Notes under the pieces: model-generated
The model's input: the letters and a program-made list of their open reading frames with translations, nothing else
Told to the model about the DNA's origin: nothing
The model's database searches: none
Shown here: piece after piece, positions 3,685-46,270 of the stretch
Position numbering within the stretch: the first letter of the stretch is position 1
Layout of the letters: each line of letters begins with the position of its first letter
Made by a program: the position numbers and the translations under genes
Source: a virus
DNA: 49,343 bases
Reading direction: 5' to 3' (one strand)
Virus record (IMG/VR): IMGVR_UViG_3300045918_000123
Location: 1 to 49,343 of that record

Positions 3685-4170
3685 TTATTTCCTTATCACT
3701 TTCGCCATTTGATATGATTTTATGGAGTACCCTAAACGTTCCCAGACCTTCCACACGTTATTACTTGGACTTACACTAAATGCAATTTCTACAACACCAA
3801 GTCGCTTCAAAACTTCTTCGCAGTACTGAAAAAACTTAATGCCTGTCCTGCCCTTACGAAACTCTTTTTGTAAAAATAGTGTGTCTTCTGTAGCCATCAG
3901 ATCTTGCGTATGGTTAGATTCGTACAACCACACACTACAATTACCTACCAACACGCCATCTTTTCGTGCTGTAAAAACGATGTACTTACCTAAAGCATTT
4001 CCGGCTAAAAGTCCATCGTAATTAGGCTTTAGTACCAATCCATGTTCGCCTTGTTTAAGTTCATCCCATTGCAGTTGATGTTGGGCTTTAATCTCCTCAA
4101 GGCAGTCCAATAGGGGTTCAGCACTAAACGTAATGCCGTTGTATCGACCTAAAGTTTCCGCGTTTTCCAT
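3685..4170 (-). CDS. GNAT-family N-acetyltransferase
   Basis: 161 aa from ATG at 4170 (MENAETLGRY). A longer frame exists up to 4251, but this ATG lies just behind a good promoter. The GNAT fold is readable: a beta strand with the cofactor-loop region EFRKGRTGIKFFQYCEEVL, then GVVEIAFSVSPSNNVWKVW and ERLGYSIKSYQM, the usual alpha-beta ending. The RKGRTG segment fits the acetyl-CoA pyrophosphate loop (R/Q-x-x-G-x-G/A type). Small GNAT genes of this kind recur beside the internal virion genes of tailed phages; the substrate is unknown. The -10 box at 4182-4177 would put the transcript start at or near the A of the ATG, so the mRNA may be leaderless. Confidence 0.8.
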   Translation of the reverse strand: MENAETLGRYNGITFSAEPLLDCLEEIKAQHQLQWDELKQGEHGLVLKPNYDGLLAGNALGKYIVFTARKDGVLVGNCSVWLYESNHTQDLMATEDTLFLQKEFRKGRTGIKFFQYCEEVLKRLGVVEIAFSVSPSNNVWKVWERLGYSIKSYQMAKVIRK

Positions 4171-4176
4171 ATATAC

Positions 4177-4205
4177 CTTATAGCATGAATTTGTTAACTT
4201 GTAAA
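4177..4205 (-). promoter_or_regulatory. Sigma70-type promoter, leftward, for the GNAT/internal virion genes
   Basis: On the minus strand -35 TTTACA (4205-4200) is followed by 17 bp and -10 TATAAG (4182-4177). The -35 box lies inside a copy of the GTTWACATGTWAAC palindrome. The predicted transcript start falls on or beside the ATG at 4170. Confidence 0.65.
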
Positions 4206-10834: not shown

Positions 10835-11125
10835 TTAAGCTGCTAGTGCGTCATCTAAGTCAGCTGTAGTAGGTTTAGCTGGTGCGTGAGGTTTCTTTAC
10901 ATTCATAGGAGCTTCTGGCTTTTTAGCTAAAATAACTGTGTTGCCGTCATCTGTTAAAGCAGTACCTTCTAAGATCTCAAGACCTGCTGGAGTTACTTCA
11001 AAACCGTTCTCTGTAGTGTGTGCTACCAATACGTGTTTACTCTCTCGCATTACTACTACTGCGCCGGCGCCTACTTGTGCTTCTTCACCTAACTGCTCAA
11101 CTACTGATTCTAGTGTGTGCGACAT
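10835..11125 (-). CDS. Hypothetical virion-region protein (96 aa)
   Basis: 96 aa. A short helix with acidic residues is followed by a compact beta domain (GAGAVVVMRESKHVLVAHTT, then FEVTPAGLEILEG) and a Lys/Pro/Ala-rich tail. No family was recognised. It is encoded with the capsid and connector genes, so it may be a minor head component. A good AGGAGAAA site precedes the ATG. Confidence 0.55.
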   Translation of the reverse strand: MSHTLESVVEQLGEEAQVGAGAVVVMRESKHVLVAHTTENGFEVTPAGLEILEGTALTDDGNTVILAKKPEAPMNVKKPHAPAKPTTADLDDALAA

Positions 11126-13731: not shown

Positions 13732-13760
13732 TTTATACTACAAAACTGTTAACATGTCAA
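13732..13760 (-). promoter_or_regulatory. Strong sigma70-type promoter for scaffold and capsid genes
   Basis: On the minus strand -35 TTGACA (13760-13755), a 17-bp spacer, -10 TATAAA (13737-13732). The -35 lies within AACATGTTGACATGTTAAC, which contains overlapping copies of the operator motif. The predicted start is near 13725. Confidence 0.75.
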
Positions 13761-15023
13761 CATGTTATTGCGCCTAGCCCTCGTGGCAGCCCAAACCATA
13801 ATCATTAGCTCTTCATCTGTGGGGTTTAGTACCCCATTTGGGTTGGGTTGTGCAAATGAGGATAGTGCGCTTGCTCCATTGTTCGTTGGGGCAGCACTTG
13901 CTGTTGGAGCTAGGTGGCTGCTAGTAGTTTTAGCAGTGCGCCCTAATACTATTGCTGCGCTGTCGGCTTGCGGATTAACAACGCCTATATGTGCTGTGCC
14001 TATTGTTGGTAAAGCTTTAGCTTCGGCGCTAGCGCGCCCTTTGTAAATATGCCCTGCAACTGCATAGCCTTTACTTCCTAATACTGTGGCCATAGCATCG
14101 GCAGTTGGTGCTACTGTGCTAGCGTTGAATGTGGCTTTTTCTTCTCGGGGTTTAGCCTCGGCGTCATAGCTAGGAATAAACCTAGCGCCTCCTTTTGCTA
14201 CCCCCTGTCCTGTGTCCCACGCATAGGTAGCACTGCTATCTACAGAGTAACTTGAAGTGTAAAGCGATGTTACGTAGTTGTTTACGCTGCTTGATGCTGA
14301 GTAAGATCCTGTGACTTGTATTACGTCTACTAAAACACTAAATGCGGTGTCGTATGTGCTGCCGATAAAGCTTCTGATAGATGTGGCACTAGAAAAGGAG
14401 GCTGCTACGGTCTGCTGGATACTACTTGATGTTGTGTAGCTACTGCTTATAGTGTTTATTATTGAGAAACTAGTACTATATGTACTGCTAGTGATGTTAA
14501 TTACTGAAAAGCTCGTGCTATAGCTTGCGCTTGCAGTTAGTACTGAGGCTTCGACGCTATAAATAACATCATAGCTACCTAAAGCATAGTTTAGTACCGA
14601 GGTGCTAGTTGAGTAGCTACTACTTACATAGTTTAGTACCGAGGTGCTAGTTGAGTAGCTACTACTTACATAGTTTAGTACACTTGCTGATGTTGTGAAC
14701 GAGCTTGCTACGATATTGCGTAAACTAAATGCAGCTGAGTAACTACCCGCTACTGTGCTACTAACACTAAATTGGGCTGCGTAGCTGGAAACAACGTTGT
14801 TATTTACAGTACTGCTAGTAGTGTAAAAGGCGCTTACTGTAGAAACGCCAGAAGCTGTCCACGAGGAAAGTCCTAAAACTCCTTCTACCGGTTGCGCTGT
14901 TGCGCTTCTAGGTGCTGCAAACGCTTGATTGTTTACGCCATCAACTAGGCTTGATGTTCCTGCTGGTGCTGGTGTGGCAAAGGCATCATTAGCGATAACG
15001 CCATCTATGATGACAAATGCCAT
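13749..15023 (-). CDS. Ser/Thr/Tyr-rich repeat virion protein
   Basis: 424 aa. Residues about 60-260 consist of some 14 imperfect repeats of about 14 residues built on S-x-Y-S-T-S-x-S-V-x-x-x-x-S, for example SSYSTSTSVLNYV. Alternating Ser/Thr and hydrophobic residues predict a regular beta stack or solenoid. The N-terminus carries two copies of a short element (FATPAPAGTSSLVDGVNN, then FAAPRSATAQPVEGV), and the C-terminus has a compact domain (DEELMIMVWAATRARRNN). It resembles repeat proteins of unknown role in podovirus virion clusters. It is encoded between lysis and capsid genes; its stop lies on top of the scaffold promoter. Confidence 0.7.
   Translation of the reverse strand: MAFVIIDGVIANDAFATPAPAGTSSLVDGVNNQAFAAPRSATAQPVEGVLGLSSWTASGVSTVSAFYTTSSTVNNNVVSSYAAQFSVSSTVAGSYSAAFSLRNIVASSFTTSASVLNYVSSSYSTSTSVLNYVSSSYSTSTSVLNYALGSYDVIYSVEASVLTASASYSTSFSVINITSSTYSTSFSIINTISSSYTTSSSIQQTVAASFSSATSIRSFIGSTYDTAFSVLVDVIQVTGSYSASSSVNNYVTSLYTSSYSVDSSATYAWDTGQGVAKGGARFIPSYDAEAKPREEKATFNASTVAPTADAMATVLGSKGYAVAGHIYKGRASAEAKALPTIGTAHIGVVNPQADSAAIVLGRTAKTTSSHLAPTASAAPTNNGASALSSFAQPNPNGVLNPTDEELMIMVWAATRARRNNMLTC
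14585..14668 (-). repeat. 42-bp tandem repeat, two exact copies plus a partial third
   Basis: Copy 1 is 14585-14626 and copy 2 is 14627-14668; a third starts at 14669 and diverges after about 14 bases. The unit is 14 codons, the same as the protein repeat. Two identical DNA copies point to recent duplication in the fibre-like gene. Confidence 0.85.
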
Positions 15024-42424: not shown

Positions 42425-42678
42425 AAACTACTTTAGAAAAAATATATTTTGACGGCAACTCTGGGGAACTTAGAGTAGCAATAGACACAGGATCAAACGG
42501 CGGAAACCCAATGCAACTTAGAGTACTACATGGTGACGGTAAAATGGCGGATTACTACGATGTTGAGACTTCAAAAATAACAATAACAATAAAAGGCGAT
42601 AGTGAAATACTTGGCTTTCTCAAAGGGATAGGTTCTATCGCCGAAGCTACGGAGGCACTAAATGCCAAAATCAAGTAA
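42418..42678 (+). CDS. Hypothetical protein (86 aa)
   Basis: 86 aa, beta-rich start (TTLEKIYFDGNSGELRVAID) and a C-terminal helix (EILGFLKGIGSIAEATEAL). AAGGA precedes the ATG. Overlaps both neighbours. Function unknown. Confidence 0.55.
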   Translation: MLETTLEKIYFDGNSGELRVAIDTGSNGGNPMQLRVLHGDGKMADYYDVETSKITITIKGDSEILGFLKGIGSIAEATEALNAKIK

Positions 42679-42934
42679 GGCAAAATTAGAATACCAAGCA
42701 GAGAGACAAAAATCTCCTGCCGAAGTAGAAAAGCGAGTAGACCGTAACCGTGCAAGACGCCATGCAATTGCCGATGGTAGAGCAAAGGTAGGTGACGGAA
42801 AAGACGTAGCGCATAAAACTGCGCTATCTAATGGAGGTTCAGATAAAGACTCAAATACGGAAATGCAAAGTACCAAGCAAAACCGAGGGTGGCGAAAAGG
42901 CGAGTCTAAATATAAAGTGCCTAATGTTAAATAA
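42662..42934 (+). CDS. HNH-like small basic protein, degenerate (90 aa)
   Basis: 90 aa, very basic. MPKSSKAKLEYQAERQKSPA and VDRNRARRHAIADGRAKVGD lead into GDGKDVAHKTALSNGGSDKD SNTEM. This is the small HNH-like pattern in which the usual D-V-D-H is here D-V-A-H, so one metal ligand is lost. It may be an inactive nuclease or DNA-binding protein. Overlaps the next gene by 11 bp. Confidence 0.65.
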   Translation: MPKSSKAKLEYQAERQKSPAEVEKRVDRNRARRHAIADGRAKVGDGKDVAHKTALSNGGSDKDSNTEMQSTKQNRGWRKGESKYKVPNVK

Positions 42935-43487
42935 AGTTTGCAAATCCTGTGGGGAGAGTAAGGATATTAACTTATTCAGCGCTTCCCACACATGCAAAGA
43001 CGGGCATAGAAACTACTGCAAGACTTGCCAGGAGTATAGGAAGACGCTGTGGAGAAAACGCAACTTAGAGCATTGCAACAATAAAGGCAGGTTGTGGAGA
43101 GAAGCTAACCCCGAAAAAGTGAAAGAAATACAAAAAACAACTGCCGCTAAAAGAAAGGAGTCTGGAAAAGCCGTAGCAGCAGCTAAGAAGAGAAGAGACA
43201 AATTCCCGGAAAAACATCGAGCATACTCTAATAGTAGGAGGAGAAAACTAAGAACAGCCACTCCTCTTTGGGCTGATAAAAAAGCGATACTGACTCTATA
43301 TGAACAGGCACAACGGCAAGGTTTGACTGTAGACCACATTATACCTATAAACCACCCACTAGTTTGTGGGCTGCACGTGCCGGACAATCTAGGGCTACTG
43401 ACGCTTGAGGAAAATACAAGGAAGCAAAACATGTTTAATGGAATACAAGCACGAGATGGATATAAAGAAAGGGATCTTAAGGTATGA
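42924..43487 (+). CDS. HNH endonuclease with zinc-ribbon N-terminus
   Basis: 187 aa from ATG at 42924. Zinc ribbon: CKSCGESKDINLFSAS with CKTCQEYRK. Long basic helix with KKRRDKFPEKHRAYSNSRRR. HNH core: TVDHIIPINHPLVCGLHVPD, then NLGLLTLEENTRKQNM. Such genes are often free-standing homing endonucleases in phages. Overlaps genes on both sides, so it is well integrated. Confidence 0.85.
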   Translation: MLNKVCKSCGESKDINLFSASHTCKDGHRNYCKTCQEYRKTLWRKRNLEHCNNKGRLWREANPEKVKEIQKTTAAKRKESGKAVAAAKKRRDKFPEKHRAYSNSRRRKLRTATPLWADKKAILTLYEQAQRQGLTVDHIIPINHPLVCGLHVPDNLGLLTLEENTRKQNMFNGIQARDGYKERDLKV

Positions 43488-43687
43488 AAGTAACCAAAGG
43501 TAAAGAAGCAGCAAAAACTCCAGCGCAACAAAAGCATTTAGATAAAGCTAACGCCCTAGAAGACAGGGCAAGCCAGACTATTGAGAACACAAAAAGCGGC
43601 CGCAGTGGCGCCGCAGCTAAAACTATTCTCGATGCTAATAAAGAGCGCAAAAAAGCAGGGCTTATTAAAGGGGCACTTAAAGTATGA
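43484..43687 (+). CDS. Small basic protein (67 aa)
   Basis: 67 aa: MKVTKGKEAAKTPAQQKHLD, helical, Lys/Ala-rich, ending KAGLIKGALKV. ATGA overlaps at both ends. Could bind DNA; no family. Confidence 0.55.
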   Translation: MKVTKGKEAAKTPAQQKHLDKANALEDRASQTIENTKSGRSGAAAKTILDANKERKKAGLIKGALKV

Positions 43688-44052
43688 GCAAAGCAGAAAA
43701 CGCAGAACAAGTAGGCGACGTCAACAGCACAGCGCGGGGCTCTGGGGCACGATACAACGGCGGCAAGCCTGACTTATCACTTATCCCACTAAGCACGCTG
43801 GAGGACGAAGCAAGGGTGTGGGAATACGGCAAACGCAAGTACAACGCATGGAACTGGACTAAAGGTATGGCATGGTCAATTCCACTGGCTTGTGCATTAC
43901 GGCATTTAGCTAAATGGCAGATGGGTGAAGAGAACGATAAAGAATCTGGCTTACCCCACCTAGCCCATGCAATGTGCAATATACGCATGCTGACACTCTA
44001 CTCAACAAACTACACTGAAGGCGATGATCGCCCGAAGGAGATACTACAATGA
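43684..44052 (+). CDS. dATP/dGTP diphosphohydrolase-type protein (DUF5664)
   Basis: 122 aa. ARYNGGKPDLSLIPLSTLED, VWEYGKRKYNAWNWTKGM, LACALRHLAKWQMGE and GLPHLAHAMCNIRMLT form the MazG-like all-helical pattern of the phage dATP/dGTP diphosphohydrolase N-terminal family. It hydrolyses dNTPs to dNMPs, adjusting pools. In some phages relatives belong to 2-aminoadenine (Z) pathways, but no purZ is in this window. Confidence 0.8.
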   Translation: MSKAENAEQVGDVNSTARGSGARYNGGKPDLSLIPLSTLEDEARVWEYGKRKYNAWNWTKGMAWSIPLACALRHLAKWQMGEENDKESGLPHLAHAMCNIRMLTLYSTNYTEGDDRPKEILQ

Positions 44053-44318
44053 CACAAAGTAGACTAAGTTCGTTTGTAGAGTCTTGGGTTAATGTGTTTA
44101 TCGGTTTCTGGATTAACTTCTTCGCCAACCTTTTAATACTGCCATTATTCGGGTTTCATATATCTATTACCAATAACTTGTTGATGGGTGTTTTATATAC
44201 TGGAATTTCAGTAGCGCGGTCGTATTGTATCCGCCGATGGTTTAATGCTTACATACACAAAGCATCATTGAAGTTAGCAGGAGAAACAGATGATAATCAG
44301 CGCGCCAAAACAGTGTAG
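44049..44318 (+). CDS. Two-TM membrane protein (DUF7220-like, 89 aa)
   Basis: 89 aa with TM segments at residues about 14-35 (VNVFIGFWINFFANLLILPL) and 42-60 (NNLLMGVLYTGISVARSYCI). ARSYCIRRWFNAYI is the recognisable end of this small phage family. The last residues (GETDDNQRAKTV) run into the 22-bp repeat and overlap the next gene by 29 bp. Function unknown. Confidence 0.65.
   Translation: MTQSRLSSFVESWVNVFIGFWINFFANLLILPLFGFHISITNNLLMGVLYTGISVARSYCIRRWFNAYIHKASLKLAGETDDNQRAKTV
44279..44300 (+). repeat. 22-bp direct repeat, left copy
   Basis: Identical to 44658-44679 over 22 bp (AGGAGAAACAGATGATAATC plus AG). Each copy holds a ribosome site, an ATG and the codons for MIIS. Confidence 0.9.
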
Positions 44319-44712
44319 ATATTGCAAGGCATACAAAGAATTATCTGAGTTTAGGCCCCATAGGACAGGAGGAGTTACCCGCTACTACCGTTGTCGTACG
44401 TGTGCCAATCTTGCATGCAAAAGGTGGAAGCGGGCGAACAGTAAGCACGTAAACGCGACCAATAAAGCAGCTCAAAAACGCAGTAACGACCATACGAGAA
44501 CAGAGGCAAAAAATGCCTATGTACCATGGAAAGCAGAAGACGCCGAATTATTAAAAAACACAACAAAAACAGATAGAGAATTAGCTAAAATACTAGGCCG
44601 TTCTATAGTAGCCGTAGCTATAAAAAGAGCGAGATGTGGGACAAGTAAACGGCTTATAGGAGAAACAGATGATAATCAGTCCACGCCACAAGACGTTAGT
44701 ACTAAAACTTAA
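44290..44712 (+). CDS. Zinc-ribbon plus HTH DNA-binding protein, possible inserted gene
   Basis: 140 aa. Zinc ribbon: CRYCKAYKELSEF with CRTCANLAC. Basic linker. C-terminal SANT/HTH-type domain: WKAEDAELLKNTTKTDREL, then AKILGRSIVAVAIKRARC. This looks like the DNA-binding parts of a homing endonuclease without the nuclease. Starts in the left copy and ends beyond the right copy of a 22-bp direct repeat, suggesting insertion as a unit. The tail GETDDNQST repeats the end of the membrane protein before it. Confidence 0.7.
   Translation: MIISAPKQCRYCKAYKELSEFRPHRTGGVTRYYRCRTCANLACKRWKRANSKHVNATNKAAQKRSNDHTRTEAKNAYVPWKAEDAELLKNTTKTDRELAKILGRSIVAVAIKRARCGTSKRLIGETDDNQSTPQDVSTKT
44658..44679 (+). 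repeat. 22-bp direct repeat, right copy
   Basis: Exact copy of 44279-44300, at the start of the helicase gene. The unit from repeat to repeat is 379 bp. Confidence 0.9.
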
Positions 44713-46231
44713 GGATCCAAACCGAGTAACTAGCATCATTCCAGGTGCCAAATTACTGCACCACAAAGGCAACAAGTATGTAGTTGTAAAGCACGGCCTA
44801 GACGAAGTAAAAGTTCTATCAAACATAGGCATTGATGCCCCTTCTCCTATTCTGCACTACTACAAATGGTCTGGAAGGTTTGACCCATTTAGTGCGCAGA
44901 AAGAGGCGGCGGCGTTTATGACAATGCACCCTAGAGCTTTTAACTTGTCTGATATGGGTACTGGAAAAACGCTCGCTACTTTATGGGCGTACGACTACCT
45001 AAGAAGTATTGGACAAGCTAAAAAGATGCTGGTGATTTCGCCACTATCAACATTAGAACGTACTTGGGCAGATGAAATATTTAACCACTTCCCTCACTTA
45101 ACGGTGGCTGTACTGCACGGTAGTACGGAGAAGCGATTAAAGCTATTAAAAACTGATGCAGATATTTACTTGATTAACCATGACGGCATTAAAGTAAAAG
45201 GCTTTGTGGAAGCGATGAAAGGACGCACAGACATTGACCTAGTAATAATAGATGAAATATCTCAGATGGCTAGAAACGCAGGAACTGACAGATACTTATC
45301 ACTGCACAAGATACTTAAGTCTGATCCACCAAGAGCAGCATGGGGTTTAACTGGTACACCAGTACCAAACGCTCCGACAGATGCTTGGGCTCAGTGTAAG
45401 TTACTAGTGCCTGAAAAAGTACCACCATTCTTCAACCGGTTTAAAGCAAATGTCATGAAGCAAGTAAGTAACTTTGTGTGGGTGCCAAGACCTAATGCCA
45501 TGGATATGGTGTATGAAGCAATGCAGCCGGCCATTAGATTTACTCGCGACGAGTGTGTGGACTTACCAGAATGCACTTACATTACACGCCATGCTAAGTT
45601 AACAGACGAGCAAGAAAAAGCATATAAGGAAATGCTGAACAAACTCAAGCTAGAACATATAGACGGAAACATCACTGCAGTAAATGAAGCAGTTAAAGCA
45701 CAGAAGCTAATTCAGATTGCGTGTGGAGTTGTTTATGGGGCGGACGGTATCAAGTTAGATTTAGATGCTACTCCAAGGCTTGAGCTAGTAAAAGAAGTTT
45801 GCGAAGAAGCAGGCACTAAGGTAATTGTTTTTGTTCCGTTCGTTTCGGTAATTGAGAAAGTTGCGGACTACTTAAAGAGTAAGGGCTTTACAACAGCAGT
45901 CATACATGGCGGTGTGCCTAAAAGTGAGCGTGACGAGATATTCAGATCGTTTCAGAAAGCGGAGGATCCAAAGATATTAGTAGCCCAACCAGCCACTATG
46001 TCCCACGGGCTAACGCTTACTGCAGCAAGTACTATGGTTTGGTACGCGCCAATTTCAAGTTCAGATACTTACCTTCAGGCATGTGCTCGAATTACTAGGC
46101 CGGGCCAGAAGCAAAACCAATTAATTGTTAATATAGAAGGGACGCCTATTGAGCAGAAGTACTACAAGCGGTTGGCAGACAAAGAAAAAACACAAGGCAT
46201 TCTACTTGATTTAATTCAGGAAAGTCGTTGA
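44669..46231 (+). CDS. SNF2-type superfamily 2 helicase
   Basis: 520 aa. Motif I DMGTGKT (residues 95-101), motif II DEIS (195-198), motif III GLTGTPV, then VFVPFVSVIEKVADYLKSKG, motif V region MSHGLTLTAAS and motif VI QACARITRPGQ. This is the layout of phage SNF2-like ATPases. Acts as translocase/helicase in replication, recombination or repair. Its start lies within the right copy of the 22-bp repeat. Confidence 0.88.
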   Translation: MIISPRHKTLVLKLKDPNRVTSIIPGAKLLHHKGNKYVVVKHGLDEVKVLSNIGIDAPSPILHYYKWSGRFDPFSAQKEAAAFMTMHPRAFNLSDMGTGKTLATLWAYDYLRSIGQAKKMLVISPLSTLERTWADEIFNHFPHLTVAVLHGSTEKRLKLLKTDADIYLINHDGIKVKGFVEAMKGRTDIDLVIIDEISQMARNAGTDRYLSLHKILKSDPPRAAWGLTGTPVPNAPTDAWAQCKLLVPEKVPPFFNRFKANVMKQVSNFVWVPRPNAMDMVYEAMQPAIRFTRDECVDLPECTYITRHAKLTDEQEKAYKEMLNKLKLEHIDGNITAVNEAVKAQKLIQIACGVVYGADGIKLDLDATPRLELVKEVCEEAGTKVIVFVPFVSVIEKVADYLKSKGFTTAVIHGGVPKSERDEIFRSFQKAEDPKILVAQPATMSHGLTLTAASTMVWYAPISSSDTYLQACARITRPGQKQNQLIVNIEGTPIEQKYYKRLADKEKTQGILLDLIQESR

Positions 46232-46256: not shown

Positions 46257-46270
46257 GTTTACATGTTAAC
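46257..46270. promoter_or_regulatory. Operator-like palindrome over the AlpA-like start codon
   Basis: GTTTACATGTTAAC is an exact consensus copy with the regulator's ATG (46263) at its centre. This is what one expects of autoregulation. A possible promoter just upstream is weak. Confidence 0.6.

Follow-up and report, generated by a model that had tools for sequence, protein, structure and literature searches.

The fitting of new genes into tightly overlapping phage operons without breaking the neighbouring genes is poorly documented. The question is raised by a locus in an uncultured phage known from a single metagenomic contig (the full 49,343 bp of an IMG/VR virus record, here called the window), where a small zinc-ribbon+HTH gene lies between a membrane-protein gene and a helicase gene. 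How this gene came to its position, and how both neighbours remained translatable, was analysed. The features of the locus are summarized in Table 1.

Table 1. Features of the locus, with positions in the window
Feature	Position	Strand	Description
EndoVII/HNH-like endonuclease gene	42924..43487	+	Same kind of zinc ribbon as the insert; the ORF is open from 42831 and the gene probably begins at 42924, within the 3' end of ORF 42662-42934
dATP/dGTP diphosphohydrolase N-terminal domain gene	43684..44052	+	Also accompanies the DUF7220 gene in other phages (conserved pair)
DUF7220 membrane-protein gene	44049..44318	+	89 aa, upstream of the insert; conservation extends to about residue 76, shortly ahead of repeat copy 1
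Repeat copy 1, AGGAGAAACAGATGATAATCAG	44279..44300	+	Gives the inserted gene its Shine-Dalgarno, ATG and first codons (MIIS); read in the frame of the membrane protein, it codes GETDDNQ; probably the derived copy
Inserted gene	44290..44712	+	140 aa; zinc ribbon C9xxC12...C35xxC38, basic helix, HTH (PWKAEDAELL...ELAKILGRSIVAVAIKR), a tail of 17 aa encoded within the helicase start region
Unique inserted DNA	44301..44657	+	357 bp = 119 codons; full-length ORF body without its own start or stop
Repeat copy 2, identical	44658..44679	+	Gives the helicase its Shine-Dalgarno, ATG and first codons (MIIS); codes GETDDNQ near the insert C-terminus; ancestral by helicase N-terminus alignment
SNF2-type DNA helicase gene	44669..46231	+	520 aa, downstream of the insert; phrog_62

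Repeat analysis

The direct repeat at the two borders of the small gene was compared between its copies. The copies match over 22 bp with 0 mismatches at a spacing of 379, and in each the Shine-Dalgarno sequence AGGAG is separated by 6 nt from ATG, after which come the codons ATA ATC AGN, the identity extending 8 nt beyond ATG into the coding sequence. The chance expectation for a 22-bp pair was 7e-5 for the whole window (base composition) and 8e-6 (about 1e-5) among about 60 gene starts with AGGAG and ATG granted free; chance is therefore excluded and the repeat is real. A sequence-only reading of this DNA had described flanking 22-bp direct repeats carrying the ribosome site and start codon of both the inserted gene and the helicase, and this description is upheld, as both ORFs start inside the copies. 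The same reading had both upstream proteins ending in GETDDNQ, which was right as to the presence of the motif but not as to the ends, since the membrane protein runs on as GETDDNQ-RAKTV and the inserted protein as GETDDNQ-STPQDVSTKT before their stops.

A search of the record that tolerated up to 3 mismatches gave only 2 occurrences of the repeat pattern, and a DNA scan of IMG/VR with its exact 21-mer gave 0 matches. RNA folding of the start regions of both copies revealed stability not above that of shuffles, and the promoter/terminator scan gave a signal near background.

Among the exact repeats of the window, a 55-bp overlapping repeat (42-bp period, 14585-14681, inside a large minus-strand ORF) ranks first, and the start-spanning repeat is joint second with a 22-bp pair at 13746 and 23788. 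Palindromic GTTNACATGTNAAC-type sites were observed genome-wide at 4192, 11579, 13641, 13747, 16259, 20953, 23789, 25999, 27923, 31541, 32602, 39674, 41376, 46256 and other positions, one of them overlapping the start of an AlpA-like HTH gene at 46263. The pattern TGTTNACATGTNNAC with at most 2 mismatches gave 43 strand matches in the window against 5.35 (sd 2.6) expected, and the GTTNACATGTNAAC-type sites resemble dispersed repressor operators.

Reading frame analysis of the inserted unit

The whole unit is 379 bp long (one more than a multiple of three), and its unique part takes up the frame of the helicase at copy 1 and passes out in that of the membrane protein at copy 2. Both junctions keep the reading frames open and each copy supplies start signals, so that the insert leaves both flanks translatable. 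The joining of the flanks in silico yielded a 94-aa membrane ORF, which ends in GETDDNQSTPQDVSTKT before its stop and overlaps the helicase gene by 43 nt. As this overlap is of the kind seen in the helicase relatives, removal of the unit restores a direct membrane-helicase junction. Both properties had been anticipated from the letters of the window.

Inserted protein and its family

The inserted protein showed no accepted domain in Pfam or NCBIfam and no HNH, GIY-YIG or EndoVII catalytic domain. It comprises a zinc ribbon and an HTH, beyond which only the 17-aa tail from the helicase start region follows; the earlier description of a gene lacking a nuclease domain thus agrees with the domain searches. 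The possibility of an HNH/EndoVII homing endonuclease was rejected, the catalytic HNH/bba-Me motif being absent (no HNH Pfam match). A Pfam DUF5089 match (E=5e-4, below its cut-off) was considered a composition match. In PHROGs, the front part of the protein matched the zinc-ribbon-bearing endonuclease families phrog_2340 (E=2.7e-7) and phrog_1035 (E=5.8e-5) over the zinc-ribbon and linker part only, and the back part gave a weak match to an HTH regulator family. The AlphaFold2 single-sequence model, which is of low confidence (mean pLDDT 59.5, about 70-77 in the HTH region), shows a beta hairpin separating the two CxxC pairs, and residues 82-116 form a three-helix bundle in it. The protein probably acts as a DNA-binding protein, and its gene is likely to be expressed.

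The best phage match over both domains was gp31 of Corynebacterium phage phi674 (tblastn E=0.006, weak). It belongs to a nuclease-less zinc-ribbon+HTH family of Corynebacterium phages, namely phi674 gp30/gp31, phi673 gp33, CL31 clg_44, BFK20 gp29 and PSonyx 89. The residues C9, C12, C35, C38, P79, E83, L102, G103 and R104 are invariant across 7 family members. The window ORF carries the two CxxC pairs, the basic linker and the C-terminal HTH with PW..ED and LGR[ST] that define the family, and it scored 115 bits against the family profile, a value partly by construction as the profile was built with the window ORF included. A scan with one Corynebacterium-phage member recovered only phi673/phi674 themselves.

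The Corynebacterium-phage genes resemble the window gene in the order of the CxxC...CxxC zinc ribbon, basic helix and PW..ED...LA..LGR[ST] HTH and in length, and they sit among small early genes. They differ from it in that they are only 17-30% identical, have their own stop and lie outside the 22-bp membrane-helicase context. Most of them are annotated 'HNH endonuclease' though they end after the HTH. In four Corynebacterium phage entries (L048, L051, L052, L053), products named 'HNH endonuclease' or 'endonuclease VII' consist of a zinc ribbon and an HTH, with the nuclease domain undetected. An annotation habit is thereby corrected, several such 'HNH endonucleases' having no detected nuclease domain.

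Comparison with relatives

The zinc-ribbon+HTH ORF was absent from 32 of 32 helicase loci (about 52-61% identity) and from all 12 membrane-protein loci. Relatives without the unit, which the sequence-only reading had proposed to look for, thus exist, but a near-identical empty site was not found among them, the nearest helicase being about 60% identical and the upstream gene differing as well. None of these relatives has a true empty site because the dGTP-DUF7220 pair is absent from the helicase relatives and belongs to unrelated phages. The opposite picture, a unit common to every relative and bordered by repeats that have diverged, fails, as the unit is missing from relatives and its two repeats are identical. 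Owing to this identity, the unit looks either recent or conserved.

The same gene had also been expected at other sites. No relatives of it were found in IMG/VR and GTDB genomes by exact-peptide scans or in the phage collection at E<=1e-3, so that at the sensitivity used no second copy was found in viral, phage or genome collections, which may omit the nearest records. The helicase scan of GTDB genomes gave no matches, and the DNA polymerase scan for close kin gave one partial match.

The polarity of the duplication was read from the protein ends. The helicase relatives start ML[VI]W-KKKALVLK, and the N-termini are MIISPRHKTLVLKL in the window, VQVHAPSKSLVLKL in Pseudomonas phage Rollin and MLISKKHRKVVI in a further relative (L030). 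In both the window and Rollin, LVLKL lies equally far from the start. Since the helicase N-terminus aligns in place with that of its relatives, copy 2 is the ancestral start and the MIIS of the insert is the copied one. The conserved part of DUF7220 (residues 1-76) stops just before copy 1, its relatives ending at residues 76-84, and the profile of the insert family reaches to about residue 120, a little short of copy 2, which lies at residue 123. Among the helicase relatives listed, it is mostly a different gene, for a QPWDFI-type small protein, that overlaps the helicase, the commonest overlap being exactly 43 nt as in the window; this agreement is partly forced because the conserved helicase N-terminus fixes the first stop in that frame. 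With the unit absent from the helicase and membrane-protein relatives, an insertion between the membrane and helicase genes in this lineage is supported.

The dATP/dGTP diphosphohydrolase-domain gene followed by the DUF7220 gene (43684-44318) forms a conserved pair in six phages without the helicase neighbourhood (L036, L037, L039-L042), to which the dGTP gene of the window is 79-81% identical. Two events have therefore to be placed at the locus, the insert and the foreign dGTP-membrane pair, and their order is not fixed.

Start-spanning repeats in other phages

Exact repeats of at least 18 bp spanning two ORF starts within 5 kb were surveyed in 742 kb of phage DNA. The survey yielded few cases: the window, BFK20, Bordetella phage BB8, an element of phi674 and a larger repeat in a further genome (L038). 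In BFK20 (L060) the starts of gp32 (24562) and gp29 (23673; zinc-ribbon+HTH), both on the - strand, carry an exact 29-bp repeat, CGCGCACCAACCAAGGAGAACATAATGAA, which has only these two copies in the genome. In BB8 (L064) an exact 24-bp repeat, TCACTGGGAGAACCAAATGAAAGT, spans two ORF starts at 4052 and 4782. The phi674 element is a 32-bp palindrome whose 'starts' are not annotated starts. A zinc-ribbon+HTH gene is touched in 2 of the 3 plausible cases, in a sample partly chosen for that family, and a link between such genes and start-spanning repeats is a lead rather than a result. A broader idea is that phages gain small genes by 'start-site duplication', which would provide a ribosome site for the newcomer and keep that of the neighbour, and that nuclease-less zinc-ribbon+HTH genes prefer this route (the window; BFK20 gp29), perhaps via their DNA-binding domains; it is regarded as distinctly unlikely.

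In comparison with phi673, phi674 has an extra unit of about 393 nt with gp31 beside its paralogue gp30. The two phages form a natural present/absent pair for the family, the shared stretch there being paralogue homology. The HNH endonuclease gene gp43 of phi674, between the polymerase and primase genes, is absent from phi673 (L061 35948-36478 vs L065 37560-37800); as a homing-gene parallel, its junctions are too diverged to read a duplication.

Proposed origin and alternative explanations

The locus is explained with reasonable probability by a lineage-specific gain of the zinc-ribbon+HTH gene through illegitimate or very short-homology recombination, which duplicated the helicase translation-start region. 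The nuclease-less gene would have been gained at the membrane-helicase junction, probably during phage replication or break repair, by an event that copied the 22-bp start region onto both sides of a foreign ORF body. The upstream copy would then start the new gene and keep the membrane ORF open to a nearby stop, and the downstream copy would still start the helicase, the new gene ending inside the former overlap of the membrane and helicase genes. This junction may be favoured by selection for unbroken translation. The recombination event would need no special enzyme; exonucleases and a resolvase-like nuclease are encoded in the phage region. The recombination route is conjectural, and recombination between the 22-bp repeats could presumably also remove the unit, passively; the literature on deletion between repeats and inserted genes yielded nothing direct.

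The order of events may have been the reverse, with the zinc-ribbon gene already before the helicase and the dGTP-membrane module arriving with a start-region copy at its end from a sibling phage in which it stood directly before the helicase. This course is rather unlikely. The dGTP-DUF7220 pair is indeed a unit common to unrelated phages and absent from the helicase relatives, but the crossover would have to fall precisely at the step from ATCAG to the first zinc-ribbon codons, a point that lacks homology, and no sibling with either intermediate was found.

A mobile cassette, inserting with a 22-bp target duplication and excising precisely, is considered improbable. The unit, at 357-379 bp and with one small ORF, is reminiscent of the ultra-small elements of mycobacteriophages (MPME1, 439 bp; PMC3029335), and the start-spanning 29-bp repeat of BFK20 also touches a family member. 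Inverted repeats together with a 6-bp addition mark the MPME insertions, however (PMC3029335). The unit has no terminal inverted repeats at its ends and no mobility gene or linked recombinase specific to it was found; with neither a second copy in the collections searched nor an excised form or near-identical empty site, the mobile or excisable cassette of the earlier reading was not borne out, and movement of the gene by itself is not supported.

Homing-type spread appears quite improbable. The EndoVII/HNH-like nuclease, whose gene lies about 0.8 kb upstream and has a related zinc ribbon, would cut the empty junction, and the nuclease-less gene would be copied in during repair, as in collaborative homing; however, HNH-like zinc-ribbon genes are common in phages, no empty site was found among the relatives, and homing by flank homology does not itself make a 22-bp duplication.

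An assembly artefact, in which two contigs or strains were misjoined via a 22-bp overlap, is very improbable even though a metagenomic contig shows an exact repeat at the joint and the arrangement occurs in no second genome: both junctions keep the frames open, the insert is a complete family-length protein, and metagenome assemblers usually finish with k-mers longer than 22. Of negligible probability is a repeat kept for regulation like the start-associated sequences (SAS) of Cluster K mycobacteriophages (PMC3203893) rather than as an insertion relic, for although similar AGGAGAAAYAAATG starts occur in the window at 11123 (-) and 41718 (+), the identity runs past ATG and full copies number 2 only.

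The proposed gain by recombination with start-region duplication is thus a variant of ordinary phage mosaicism and gene gain, start-spanning repeats being occasional elsewhere (BFK20, BB8). For one case it gives a simple answer that can be checked, and it points to a genome-wide test.

Comparison with known elements

The unit was compared with three kinds of known phage elements. The MPMEs of mycobacteriophages occur as several identical copies in near-identical phages, and they bear inverted repeats and a 6-bp addition (PMC3029335). The window unit is like them in measuring about 0.4 kb, with one small ORF, and in lying between or within phage genes, and unlike them in having no terminal inverted repeats, 6-bp addition or near-identical copies elsewhere. 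The SAS of Cluster K mycobacteriophages are 13 bp long, occur in 11-19 copies upstream of the start codon and share with the window a repeated sequence with a Shine-Dalgarno just before start codons (PMC3203893). The window repeat, unlike SAS, is 22 bp long, has 2 full copies (with 2 partial look-alikes) and reaches into codon 4. The PeSL mobile regulatory cassettes of T4-type phages are reportedly promoter and terminator repeats in many copies. They are said to resemble the present case in that genes are flanked by repeated expression signals which permit shuffling, whereas the repeat in the window is a translation-start region present in two copies.
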